A stretch of DNA of 32,948 nucleotides. Source: Terriglobales bacterium. Its GTDB lineage: Bacteria > Acidobacteriota > Terriglobia > Terriglobales > SCQP01. The first letter of the stretch is position 1; each line of letters starts with the position of its first letter. The notes under the pieces are model-generated. The model was not told the origin of the DNA and ran no database searches. It saw nothing but the letters and a program-made list of their open reading frames with translations. Positions 840 to 6,982 of the stretch are shown here, piece after piece. The translations under genes were made by a program, and so were the position numbers. The stretch is from positions 1 through 32,948 of the forward strand of contig JANWJU010000098.1 of assembly GCA_025451775.1 (NCBI GenBank), read 5' to 3'.

Positions 840-1991
840 CTAGGCTTTCGGCGTATCCACCCACTTGCGCGTTGTGTTGCTCTCCAACTCGGCCTCCAGA
901 ATTTGCAGCTGCCGCAGGCCGTCGCTGAACTGCGGGTACTCGAGCGGCGCCGAGGCGCTGCCGACCGAAGCGTAGAAGCGGCGGAAGAGCTGCTTGAAAG
1001 TGTCGGGGTAGCCTTCGGCGTGTCCGCCGGGGTAATCGGCGAAGGCGCGGGCTTCGGGTTTCAGCAGGGAAGGATCCTTGAGCAGCTCCTGGTTGTTGGT
1101 GTTGCGGTTCCCGATCCAGAGCTGGTTGGGGCGCTCCTGATCCCAGGTCACCGAACCCAGGGTGCCGTAGATCTCGATGCGCAGCTGGTTTTTGCGGCCC
1201 GCCGAGACCTGGCTCACGGTGAAGGCGCCGCGGGCGCGCTCGCCGAGGTGGAAGAGGCAGGAGCCGAAGTCCTCGGTCGTGATGGGCACCAACTCGTAGT
1301 CTTCGGGCTTCAACATCTTGCCCGAGAAGGTCTCGATCTCCCCTTTGGGCCGCTTGCGGTTCTTGTGGAAGGTCTGCACCTCCGCGCACACCGACTGGAT
1401 GCGCAGGCCGGTGACGTGTTCGGTCATATCGCACCAGTGCGAGCCGATATCGGCCAGGGTGCGGGAGGCGCCGTTGGCTTTTTGGTCGATGCGCCAGTTC
1501 CAGTCGGTGTCGTAAAGCAGCCAATCCTGCGAATATGTGCCCTGGACGACGAGAATCTCGCCCAACTCGCCGGCGGCGCACATGCGGCGCATCTGCTGCA
1601 CCAAGGGGTAATAGCGCAGGTTGTGGCAGGTGGCGTTGCGGAGCTTCTTCTCCGCCGCCAGCGCCACCAGCTTCTGCGCCTCCGCGGCTGAGATGGCAAG
1701 CGGCTTTTCGCAGAGCACATGCTTGCCCGCCTTCAGCGCCGCTTCCGCGATAGGGAAGTGCAGCGCGTTGGGGGTGCATACATGCACGACTTGGATGGCG
1801 GGGTCGTTGATGACCTCCGTGTAATCGGCCACCGCGCGGCCGATGCCAAACTCCTGCGCCAGCTTCTGGGCGGCGGGCAGTTGGGCGTCGGCGATGGCGC
1901 GGATGTCGACCGATCCCAGCCGGCGCAGGGCTTCCACGTGGGCGTGGCCGATGAAGCCAGCGCCGATGACAGCAGATGTATAGGTGCTCAT
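840..1991 (-). CDS. Gfo/Idh/MocA family NAD(P)-dependent oxidoreductase
   Basis: N-terminal Rossmann motif AVIGAGFIGHAHVEAL, EKP motif (HVLCEKPLAIS), GSHWCDMTEHVTG. Start set at MSTYTSAV because SD-like AAGGAAAG lies just upstream. Confidence 0.93.
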   Translation of the reverse strand: MSTYTSAVIGAGFIGHAHVEALRRLGSVDIRAIADAQLPAAQKLAQEFGIGRAVADYTEVINDPAIQVVHVCTPNALHFPIAEAALKAGKHVLCEKPLAISAAEAQKLVALAAEKKLRNATCHNLRYYPLVQQMRRMCAAGELGEILVVQGTYSQDWLLYDTDWNWRIDQKANGASRTLADIGSHWCDMTEHVTGLRIQSVCAEVQTFHKNRKRPKGEIETFSGKMLKPEDYELVPITTEDFGSCLFHLGERARGAFTVSQVSAGRKNQLRIEIYGTLGSVTWDQERPNQLWIGNRNTNNQELLKDPSLLKPEARAFADYPGGHAEGYPDTFKQLFRRFYASVGSASAPLEYPQFSDGLRQLQILEAELESNTTRKWVDTPKA

Positions 1992-2005
1992 GAACTTTCC
2001 TTGAA

Positions 2006-2965
2006 TTACACCCACCAGGCGGCGGCGGGCTGCTCGGCGGGGACGATGGGCAGCAGGAAGCTGGCCGCGCGCGTGAGGCCCTCGTTAGGCGACAACAGGC
2101 TGTCCTCGTGCTCGATCGAGAGGGTGTAGTCGTAGCCGTACATGCGCAGTGTGGAGACGAACTCCCGCCACCACTCCTCGCCGTGGCCGTAGCCGCAGGT
2201 GCGGAAGATCCAGCCGCGGTTGCGCTCGTCGGTGTAAGGTTTGGTGTCCAGCACGCCGGTGAGGGGCAGGTTACGGCCGTAGATCTGGGTGTCCTTGGCG
2301 TGGACGTGGAAGATGGCGTCGCCGAGGATGCGGATGGCGGCGATGGGGTCGATATTCTGCCAGAACATGTGGCTGGGATCGTAGTTGCACCCCAGCGCGG
2401 GGCCGGCGATGGCGCGCAGCTTCAGCATCGTCTCCGGGCTGTAGGCCACGAAGCCGGGGTGCATCTCGATGGCGATCTTGACGCCGTGGTCGGCGGCGAA
2501 CTTGGCCCGCTTCACCCAGTACGGTGTCACCACCTCATCCCACTGCCACTTCAGCACGTCGAGGAAATCGGGCGGCCAGGGGCAGGTGACCCAATTGGGC
2601 TGTTTGGCCGCGGGCGAATCGCCGGGGCAGCCGGAGAAGTCCACCACCACGGGCACGCCCAGCTTCTCGGCCAGCAGGATGGTCTTCTCATTCACCTGCT
2701 GGTCGTGCTTGGCGCGGGCCGGATCCGGGTGCAGCGGGTTGCCGTGGCAGCTCAGGGCGCTGATGGAAAAGCCGTGGTCGGCGAGCGTCTTTTTGAACGT
2801 GTCCAGCTCAGCCTTGTTGTCGAGCATGGAGAGCTTGCAATGGGCGTCGCCAGGATAGTTGCCGGTGCCCAACTCGACCGTGCTGATGCCGACCGATTGC
2901 AGCTTCTTGAGAACTTCAGGGAGAGAAAAATTCGACAATAACGGGGTAAAAACGCCGACTTTCAA
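2006..2965 (-). CDS. Sugar phosphate isomerase/epimerase (xylose isomerase-like TIM barrel), probable TTG start
   Basis: MKVGVFTPLLSNFSLPEVLKKLQSVGISTVELGTGNYPG; IAIEMHPGFVAYSPETML; YDPSHMFWQ; HVHAKDTQ; LSIEHED. Perfect GGAGGTGATC SD 5' of the TTG. Confidence 0.92.
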   Translation of the reverse strand: MKVGVFTPLLSNFSLPEVLKKLQSVGISTVELGTGNYPGDAHCKLSMLDNKAELDTFKKTLADHGFSISALSCHGNPLHPDPARAKHDQQVNEKTILLAEKLGVPVVVDFSGCPGDSPAAKQPNWVTCPWPPDFLDVLKWQWDEVVTPYWVKRAKFAADHGVKIAIEMHPGFVAYSPETMLKLRAIAGPALGCNYDPSHMFWQNIDPIAAIRILGDAIFHVHAKDTQIYGRNLPLTGVLDTKPYTDERNRGWIFRTCGYGHGEEWWREFVSTLRMYGYDYTLSIEHEDSLLSPNEGLTRAASFLLPIVPAEQPAAAWWV

Positions 2966-2967
2966 AG

Positions 2968-3016
2968 ATCACCTCCGACTGGACAACGCTAGCAGCGTAG
3001 CGCAGCCGGAGGTGAT
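2968..3016 (-). promoter_or_regulatory. Leader hairpin overlapping the SD of the downstream isomerase gene (14-bp stem, nested 5-bp hairpin in the loop)
   Basis: 2968-2981 atcacctccgactg versus 3003-3016 cagccggaggtgat (13 Watson-Crick pairs plus one G-U as minus-strand RNA). Inner hairpin acgct-agc-agcgt at 2986-2998. Confidence 0.75.
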
Positions 3017-3027
3017 TCGCAAGGCAA

Positions 3028-3045
3028 AACCAGCGCCCGCTGGTT
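3028..3045 (-). terminator. Hairpin followed by TTTTGCCTT on the minus strand, just downstream of the TonB receptor stop; weak intrinsic terminator or processing hairpin
   Basis: aaccagcg-cc-cgctggtt inverted repeat. The minus-strand continuation is TTTTGCCTTGCG. Confidence 0.45.
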
Positions 3046-3049
3046 GCGC

Positions 3050-6000
3050 CTACCAGTGCAGGCGCAGCCCTAATTCCATCTGCCGGGGACCATTTTGGGT
3101 GCCCGTGATGGTGCCGAAGTCGGCTGGATCTTGCAGCATCAGGCTGGGGTCGGCCCAATTGACGTGATTGAAGGCATTGGTCATCTCCACGTTGAAGGTC
3201 GCGCCCAAACGCTCAGTGACTTGGAAGTCTTTGCGCAGATTCATGTCTACGTTCCAGAACGCCTGGCCATAGCCAAAGATGGTGGTGCGGGAGTGGTCCT
3301 GCCCCAGGATGGCGGGACGGAACGAGGCCAGCACCGCCGCCGGGTCGGCAAAGGCATTGATGCCGGTGCCGCCGCCGGTGGGATCTTGGTTGGCCCCCAC
3401 GACGCCGTTGCTGGTGAAGTTGAAGTGCGGAGTCACCTGGGGAATGGATTTGAGCGGGATCGCCGAGACATCGTTATCGGAGTTGACGGTAGGGGAGCCG
3501 TACTCCTCCCACGATCCGTCAATGACCGAGAGCGGATCGCCGCTGTGCCAGGTCAGGATGGGGGCCACCGACCAGCCCCCGAACAGCCGTCCCTCCCAGC
3601 CCGCGCCCTGGTAAGGGATTTGATAGAGCGCGGTGATGTTGGCGATCCAGCGCAGGTCGTAGAGAGACGTGCCGTAATCGGCGGTACGGCTGAAGGCGTC
3701 AACCGTCTGCGAGCCGCTCGCCGCCTGGTAGTAGGCGCCCATGTCGAGGGCGTGGGACCAGGTGAGGTTGCCATCGAGCGTGAGCCCGTTGGCGGCCCGC
3801 TTTTGCAGGCTGAGGACGCCGGCGTTGTAGGTCGAGCGGCCATTCGAGGAGGCCAACTCGGCGCCGCCCAGCCCCTGGCTCTGAATCAAGGCGGGGCCGA
3901 AGACCCAGTGGTTTTCCAGATCACCCCAGAGGTTGGCCACGTTCTGGAGGCCGATGTTGTTGGTGCCAGTGGGGCCTTCGGCGGCGGCCACGGCGGCGGT
4001 GCAGTTGGCGGCATTGGCGCAGAAATTTCCGGGGCCCTTGGCCAGCGCTGCTTCAAAAAACGGTTGCGGGGTGACGGCGCTGGGGCTGATCGATGGGTCG
4101 GCGTTGAGCTGGTTGGCGAGTGCGGCGTAGGCTTGGGCGAAGGATTGGCCGCCCAGGGTCATCATGTAGGGCACTTGGTTGAGGTCTTCGGTGCGGTACT
4201 GATGCCGCTCCCAGCGGCCCACCCAGGCGAGTTGCAAGATGGTGTTGCCGGGGAGTTGGCGCTGCAGGCTGACGGTGAACTCGTCAATCGCTGCCGGCTG
4301 GAAATCGGGGGAGATGCTACCCCCGCTGGCGATGGCGGCACTGTTTACCCCGGGCTGAATGGGCGTTGCCAGCGTGGCCGGCAGCGCCGGCAGCGGGGCC
4401 ACGTTGCCGTCGGTACCGAGGCGGAAGGCGGTGGCGGCCGTCTGCGTGGCGGTGCCGTTACAGGCTGCCGCCGAGCTGGTCACGCTGGGTGAGTTCACGC
4501 CGTAGCAGGTGGCAGCTTGGGCGAAGCCGACGCCGTTGAGCGGGGAAATCACCAAGGTGGTGCCGTTGCTGCGATCGTAGACGCGTCCCCAACCGGCGCG
4601 CAGCACGCTGGCATCGCTGCCGAACAGGCGTTGCCTCCAACCCCCGCCAAAGTGCGGGTTCCAGGCGGCGGCCAGACGCGGGCTGGCGTCCGCGTAGACG
4701 GGGTGGAACGGATACTGACCCAGGCTCTTGACCGCGCCCACCGGCTCATAGCCGAGCACCGGATTATAGTTCTGACCCGCCAAGGCGGCCTTGGCCTTGG
4801 CGCTCAGATAGCCGATGGTGGTGATGGGGGTGCCATTGCCGTCGACCAAAATATCCTGCGCGCCGTTTTGCTCGACCGGCGGCATCTGCGCGCCCCAGTT
4901 CACTCCATAGGTTAGTGTCAGCCGCGGCGTGATGTGCCAACTGTCGCTGGCATAAATGCTCCAATTGTTGATGGCGCTGGTGGCGCCAATGGGGGTGCCC
5001 TGCGGTTGCAAGGTGAGGTTGGCGCCGGTGCGGCTGCCCACCACCTTGGCGCTATCCAGGGTGCCGATGGTCTCGTAGTAGAGCTGATCCCATTGGGCGG
5101 AGGTGGCGGCGATACAGTTGGTGAGGAGCGTGGCCGTGCAGGAGGGCGGGCGGTAGTCCGCGGAAGCGAGAATGCTGTGAGCGCCGCCCAGCGTGTATTC
5201 GGGCGTGGTCAGTGCCCCGCCGGCGTCGTCGCGGACGAACCGCACCCAGGTGTGGTCCCAGTTGGCGCCGAATTGCACCAGATGGTTGCCATGATTCCAG
5301 CTCACGTTGTCGCTGTAGTTCCAATCGTGGCCGTTCCAGGTGCGCTGGCGGGCGCCGGGCCAGTTGATGTTCACGGGATCCAGCCCGCCGGTGATGCCGC
5401 CGCCGACGCTGACGCCGGCGGGTACGCCCGGGATCAGTTGGGGCACGCCACCGGTCTGCCACGACCACCAATTGCGGACGTAGTTGAAATGGAATTGATT
5501 GACCAGGTTGGGTGTGATCTGGCCGGTGAGCGCGGTGACGAAGTACCGCGGCTGCACCGGATGCACCGAAGTCAGCCGCGGCACGCCCAGCGTGTCGCCC
5601 GGTAAAACCCCGCCCCAGTCAAACTGCGGATAGCTGCTGGTTTCCGGATCAACCGACTTGTCCATGCGATAGCTGGCCATCCATTGCCAATTGGAGCCGA
5701 AGTCATGGTCCATGCGCGCCACGAAGCTGTTGTCGCTGGTGGGGATGCTCACTTGCTGGCTGTCGCCAATGGTGTTGAGGCCGTCGCCGACGGAAGTATT
5801 GTTGCCCACCGGCATGTACTTCGACCACAGCCCGCTTACCAGCGGACTGATGCCGATTTGGCGGGGATCGCACGGCTGTCCGCCCGTGGGCCCACAGGCG
5901 GTGGAAGTGGCCAAGTCAAACTGCTCGACCACCTTGTTGCCGTCGCGGAATTGCAGGATGCCTTGCCGCATCAGAGCCGAGGGCACGATGGTGGTCTCCG

Positions 6001-6982
6001 TCTGCGACAGCGGAAAGCGCCGGCCCTCGAAGTTCATGTAGAAAAACGTCTTGCCGCCCAGCATGGGAGGGAGCAGCGGTCCGCCCAACGCGCCGCCAAA
6101 CCGGTTCTGATGATTCTTCTGCTGATGGATGCCCAGCCGGTTGTCGTTCCAATCGTTGGCGTTGAGCCAGTTGGCCTGATAAAAGTCGTAGAGTGAGCCG
6201 TGCCAGGCGCTGGTGCCGCGCTTGGTGACCATCATCACCTCGCCGCCGGAGGCCGTGCTGTAATCGGCGGTGGGGTTGTTGGTGGTGACGCGGATCTCCT
6301 GGATGCTCTCCACCGGGGTGGGCACGACGCCGGAGCCGGAGTTGTTGCTGCTGAAGCCGGCGGTATAGAGGGCGCCGTTGCCGTCAATATCGCTGGTATT
6401 GTTGCCCCCGTCCAGCAGGTAGGTGTTCTGATCCTTCAAGGCCCCCGAGATCTCGCCTGCGGGGTTGGTGTTGCCCTGGTAAATCAACAGCGACGAAGCA
6501 TCGCGGCCGAGGTTGGGGAGCGCCAGGGCGGCATCGCCGGAGAGCGCCGTGCCGAGGGAGGCGTTCATGGTCTGCAACTCGGCGACGGGCGAGGCGCCGA
6601 CCTCCACCGTTTGATTGACGGTGCCAACCGTGAGCCGGACGTTTTCGGTGAGTGCCGCCGCCACGTTCACCGCTTGTCCGGTGATGCGGGCGGATTGGAA
6701 CCCGGCTTTGTCCACGCGCAGATCGTAGGTGCCCAGCCTGACCGCGGGGAAAAGGTAGCGGCCTGCGCTATTGGTCTGGACCGTGCGTATCACGCCCGTG
6801 GCATTGTCGGTCAGCGTGACGTTAGCCGCGGGAATCGCGGCACTGCTCGGATCGGTCACAGCCCCCACAATCGTGCCCGTTGCCGTGGCTTGCCCCTGCA
6901 GGCGCAGAGCGCCGCCGCCAGTTAATCCCAGCAAAATCACTGCTGCGCACGCCCAGCGCCAGCTATCAGTTAGTCGGTGCAT
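3050..6982 (-). CDS. TonB-dependent receptor, Oar-like, with N-terminal carboxypeptidase-regulatory-like domain
   Basis: Signal peptide, then GTIVGAVTDPSSAAIPAANVTLTDNATGVIRTVQTNSAGRYLFPAVRLGTYDLRV; plug-like region; C-terminal GPRQMELGLRLHW ending in an aromatic residue. Confidence 0.94.
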   Translation of the reverse strand: MHRLTDSWRWACAAVILLGLTGGGALRLQGQATATGTIVGAVTDPSSAAIPAANVTLTDNATGVIRTVQTNSAGRYLFPAVRLGTYDLRVDKAGFQSARITGQAVNVAAALTENVRLTVGTVNQTVEVGASPVAELQTMNASLGTALSGDAALALPNLGRDASSLLIYQGNTNPAGEISGALKDQNTYLLDGGNNTSDIDGNGALYTAGFSSNNSGSGVVPTPVESIQEIRVTTNNPTADYSTASGGEVMMVTKRGTSAWHGSLYDFYQANWLNANDWNDNRLGIHQQKNHQNRFGGALGGPLLPPMLGGKTFFYMNFEGRRFPLSQTETTIVPSALMRQGILQFRDGNKVVEQFDLATSTACGPTGGQPCDPRQIGISPLVSGLWSKYMPVGNNTSVGDGLNTIGDSQQVSIPTSDNSFVARMDHDFGSNWQWMASYRMDKSVDPETSSYPQFDWGGVLPGDTLGVPRLTSVHPVQPRYFVTALTGQITPNLVNQFHFNYVRNWWSWQTGGVPQLIPGVPAGVSVGGGITGGLDPVNINWPGARQRTWNGHDWNYSDNVSWNHGNHLVQFGANWDHTWVRFVRDDAGGALTTPEYTLGGAHSILASADYRPPSCTATLLTNCIAATSAQWDQLYYETIGTLDSAKVVGSRTGANLTLQPQGTPIGATSAINNWSIYASDSWHITPRLTLTYGVNWGAQMPPVEQNGAQDILVDGNGTPITTIGYLSAKAKAALAGQNYNPVLGYEPVGAVKSLGQYPFHPVYADASPRLAAAWNPHFGGGWRQRLFGSDASVLRAGWGRVYDRSNGTTLVISPLNGVGFAQAATCYGVNSPSVTSSAAACNGTATQTAATAFRLGTDGNVAPLPALPATLATPIQPGVNSAAIASGGSISPDFQPAAIDEFTVSLQRQLPGNTILQLAWVGRWERHQYRTEDLNQVPYMMTLGGQSFAQAYAALANQLNADPSISPSAVTPQPFFEAALAKGPGNFCANAANCTAAVAAAEGPTGTNNIGLQNVANLWGDLENHWVFGPALIQSQGLGGAELASSNGRSTYNAGVLSLQKRAANGLTLDGNLTWSHALDMGAYYQAASGSQTVDAFSRTADYGTSLYDLRWIANITALYQIPYQGAGWEGRLFGGWSVAPILTWHSGDPLSVIDGSWEEYGSPTVNSDNDVSAIPLKSIPQVTPHFNFTSNGVVGANQDPTGGGTGINAFADPAAVLASFRPAILGQDHSRTTIFGYGQAFWNVDMNLRKDFQVTERLGATFNVEMTNAFNHVNWADPSLMLQDPADFGTITGTQNGPRQMELGLRLHW

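Follow-up and report, generated by a model that had tools for sequence, protein, structure and literature searches.

The start codon of an apparently acquired isomerase gene of sugar catabolism on the minus strand of the window (the whole stretch of DNA that was analysed, 32,948 nucleotides from a soil-dwelling Terriglobales bacterium) is preceded by a hairpin that pairs away a perfect Shine-Dalgarno (SD) sequence. We tentatively favor the view that this lineage-specific hairpin, formed around the promoter of the gene itself, mutes translation of read-through RNA and acts as an insulator rather than as a switch that responds to a ligand or to heat. Promoter activity, transcription start, read-through and selection for muting are parts of this view that we infer.

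The hairpin lies between the stop codon of a TonB-receptor gene (3050) and the TTG start of the isomerase gene (2963..2965, minus strand). Its 5' arm ATCACCTCCGGCTG, complementary to the SD (3003..3016), pairs as 3016-3003 with the 3' arm CAGTCGGAGGTGAT (2968..2981) as 2981-2968, forming 14 bp including one G-U, and the loop holds a nested 5-bp hairpin, ACGCT-GCT-AGCGT, exactly as described in the original prediction. The 10-nt SD GGAGGTGATC (2967..2976), within the 3' arm, also stands as predicted, 6 nt (TGATCT) separating GGAGG from the TTG at 2965; it occurs once in the window against 0.04 expected, and its duplex with the 16S tail amounts to -18.4 kcal/mol. The TTG at 2965 is the correct start, since alignments with homologues of 50-84% identity begin at residue 1, where these have ATG, GTG or TTG; TTG is also used by the three nearest relatives. 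Folding of the leader, proposed earlier as a check, gave an extreme energy (-54.8 kcal/mol for 111 nt, z = -4.3, equalled in 0 of 200 shuffles), with -34.0 kcal/mol for the 51-nt hairpin element. A stem of at least 14 bp arose in 1 of 4000 shuffles in which the SD was kept and the upstream part shuffled, and just one of at least 12 bp was present among about 414 neighbouring genes. The hairpin exceeds chance at the isomerase gene, yet it is not beyond chance across many genomes. The sole comparable case among the roughly 414 genes sampled is a 15-bp stem over an SD-like site at another gene start, in locus L051 near 7371 (plus strand).

The 5' arm had also been described as a mimic of the 16S rRNA tail. 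Its pairing with the SD is real, but the resemblance to 16S is no separate coincidence, because any complement of a perfect SD looks so. An rRNA-derived fragment was rejected, the match being of about 10 nt only and entirely explained by SD complementarity. The genome's own assembly includes no 16S gene, and GGATCACCTCCTT was found in a genome of the same family (G006) and in another of the same class (G132).

The isomerase (2006..2965, minus strand, 319 aa) is a xylose isomerase-like TIM barrel protein (PF01261) followed by a GFO/IDH/MocA oxidoreductase (840..2015, minus strand). Upstream lies the gene of a TonB-dependent receptor-type outer membrane protein (3050..6982, minus strand, PF25183 and PF13620), co-directional with the catabolic genes and 84 nt away. 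Since the pair formed by the MetRS and TonB genes is syntenic in genus mates, the contig belongs to its own genome, and misbinning was rejected. No copy of the isomerase turned up in the four genus mates, two of which are incomplete, and the identity of the isomerase is 60-64% to the other members of the family having the gene versus 80-84% to another family of the class (f6), where the oxidoreductase adjoins it in L162, L164 and L165. The two genes, at 843-2965, apparently form a horizontally acquired cassette behind the resident TonB gene. In the other loci examined, for which upstream coverage varies, the isomerase is never immediately preceded by a close homologue of the TonB protein, which indicates that the isomerase is independent of the TonB gene elsewhere. 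The TonB gene may have a weak terminator in a short hairpin followed by TTTTG (AACCAGC-GGGC-GCTGGTT, 3025..3045, minus strand, -13.6 kcal/mol), which the terminator scan did not score as one. Clear terminators of the hairpin-plus-T type close the TonB genes that adjoin MetRS in G003 and G004. A locus of one genus mate (L157, G004:C14:393000-412000) has three tandem TonB-receptor paralogues by MetRS, each followed by a terminator-like hairpin.

What suggests a promoter inside the hairpin is a putative extended -10 element in its loop, TGCTAGCGTTGTCC (2981..2994, minus strand; TG at 2994-2993, hexamer TAGCGT at 2991-2986). It aligns with a motif in the leaders of relatives and matches TGNTAGNCTTGTCC, found there before the same gene, at 12 of its 14 positions (shuffles give P 0.0013, for a motif that was noticed first and tested afterwards), while a match of at least 11 positions occurred in none of 376 other genes. 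Among 107 homologue leaders, TGNTA[TG]NCT is present in 20 against 0.5 expected and TAGNNTTGTCC in 6 against 0.03; upstream of other genes of these loci, the extended -10-like TGNTANNNT is likewise more frequent on the coding strand (20 vs 6 of 376). In the tree, the window gene groups with L008, L162 and L137 (100/97 support) and its clade is placed between two clades carrying the motif, which was therefore probably inherited from an ancestor. Against the favored reading, the motif is absent from these three nearest sequences, and the window hexamer TAGCGT is without the CT of the TAGNCT of relatives. No -35 element was seen, and a sigma-70 scan found nothing.

Under the favored reading, the isomerase/oxidoreductase cassette would keep its own extended -10 (2994-2986) in the hairpin loop, behind the resident TonB gene, and the hexamer would set the transcript start near 2980. 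The match of the loop to the ancestral promoter-like motif thus suggests a start downstream of the 5' arm, which would probably be absent from this mRNA. Its leader of about 15 nt, AGTCGGAGGTGATCT and then TTG, would leave the perfect SD exposed and be translated, whereas RNA read through from the TonB gene would have both arms, form the 14-bp hairpin, hide the SD and mute the cassette. On and off would be set by which promoter made the RNA, with no ligand. In silico at 37 °C, opening the SD costs 18.6-20.2 kcal/mol in RNAs that begin at 3016 or anywhere upstream of it, and 18.9-19.9 kcal/mol in RNA entering from the TonB gene, against 18.4 kcal/mol gained by pairing with 16S, a net of about +1 kcal/mol and therefore no gain; in RNA starting at 2980 the cost is 6.1 kcal/mol against the same 18.4, a net of -12.3 kcal/mol. 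The concealment of the SD first proposed would consequently hold for read-through RNA but probably not for RNA from the putative promoter.

A comparison of 99 distinct homologue leaders including that of the window (at least 70% identity) sets the hairpin apart. Its stem of 14 bp is the extreme against a median of 5, none of the 98 other leaders has a comparable stem, and opening the region just before the start costs 24.4 kcal/mol in the window, where the median is 4.2 and the runner-up reaches 14.4. No relative with the arms was found. In its own genome, the 8+8 inverted repeat of SD and anti-SD occurs once, and a repeat element was rejected on this ground. For 399 genomes of the class, our count of the rows listed gives 27 such repeats versus about 18 in the backwards control. 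Few of the remaining 26 stand before a plausible gene start. The 98 leaders without the stem and a repeat count near the control level indicate that there is no conserved switch, and a recurrent class-wide SD/anti-SD device was likewise rejected.

This distribution speaks for the main rival and close second, a neutral palindrome: the gene would be expressed from its own promoter, with the hairpin of little consequence, which we regard as quite possible. In sequence comparison, the inner stem half (CCGGCTG ... TCGG) is similar to the flanks of the motif in relatives; the outer one (ATCACCT/AGGTGAT) is a novelty of the window gene. A partial inverted repeat flanking the promoter could have been extended by chance or template switching into a strong SD and its complement. 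In favor of muting over such an accident, the stem coincides precisely with the SD of a genuine start, and stems of this length are rare per gene, as in the shuffles; nevertheless, the lack of conservation counts against showing selection on muting.

The original prediction was of a designed off/on element, in which a TonB-isomerase mRNA would have its SD hidden by default until opened by a ligand, a helicase, a translating ribosome or temperature. The near balance between opening cost and 16S pairing in read-through RNA is consistent with it, as is the co-directional arrangement of receptor and catabolic genes, but we consider it unlikely. The promoter-like motif downstream of the 5' arm speaks against it, and the stem is absent from all 98 other leaders. 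Rfam returned no family at gathering and nothing meaningful at E <= 1; a known RNA family was rejected, the weak P35 match (E 0.39) lying far under its cut-off. A translational riboswitch is not supported, for want of an Rfam match and of conservation in the 99 leaders. An RNA thermometer was rejected, since in silico the SD helix stays closed up to about 70 °C (mean unpaired 0.16-0.17 from 20 to 70 °C). As to a translating ribosome, one that halts at the TonB stop (3050) would still be 33 nt away from the stem and should not directly open it. Finally, the palindrome could act as DNA, as a two-armed repressor operator over the promoter core, its arms flanking the putative -10 and the predicted start; this is the least probable of the readings weighed, because the arms were found neither in any relative nor elsewhere in the own genome and no transcription-factor family is present among the window proteins scanned.

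The favored insulator reading has a close parallel in phage T4, where a helix conceals the SD on long transcripts of e (lysozyme), soc, 49 and I-TevI. For gene e, a promoter situated where the 5' strand of this helix is encoded yields short transcripts without that strand, which are translated (PMC3014915). In silico, the window SD is likewise sequestered in a helix on long transcripts, the putative promoter at 2994-2986, with no -35 seen, would start RNA after the 5' arm, and the predicted energies agree (net -12.3 kcal/mol for the short RNA vs about +1 for the long one). Unlike T4, which uses a late phage promoter, the window has a chromosomal catabolic gene, and the extended -10 in its loop is putatively of host type; its hairpin, unlike the T4 leaders, is without conserved relatives. 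In the fold-back inhibition of the IS10 transposase, folding over the ribosome site affects transcripts that enter from outside and spares those begun at the promoter of the element itself. Read-through and own-promoter RNA would differ in the same manner here, but no transposase or element ends were seen and the cassette is a catabolic one. Base pairing also hides the SD in RNA thermometers and translational riboswitches, whereas the window hairpin is without sensor domain, conservation or melting in the physiological range. If the favored reading is true, it would extend to a cellular gene the logic of gene e, whereby the position of the promoter inside an SD hairpin decides translation, and would give a freshly arrived operon a means of insulation from its neighbor. 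It would also warn that a perfect SD/anti-SD hairpin in a leader may lie outside the main transcript. That acquired Acidobacteriota cassettes can evolve a palindrome round their own promoter, so that only the RNA made there is translatable and the newcomers are shielded from host read-through at the level of RNA, with no terminator needed, is doubtful.

Extended -10-like motifs are present in the isomerase leaders of relatives. TGATATTCTG, which marks one clade, usually lies 25-45 nt before a GTG start; it is strikingly conserved before the isomerase in L010, L011, L014, L015, L022, L025, L027, L031, L034, L041, L047, L051, L061 and L073, whose leaders usually combine the GTG start with an SD, and it could be a promoter or an operator. 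GATATTCTG is present in 12 of the 107 leaders and in none of the shuffles. TGNTAGNCTTGTCC marks other clades and is mostly found 7-15 nt before the start, so that the mRNAs are predicted to be nearly leaderless; TANNNT near the start is a signal of leaderless genes (PMC3160421). In L030, L035, L145 and L147, the TAGNCT hexamer lies just 7 nt before the TTG (last 16 nt examined), and a leaderless mRNA starting on the TTG is predicted.
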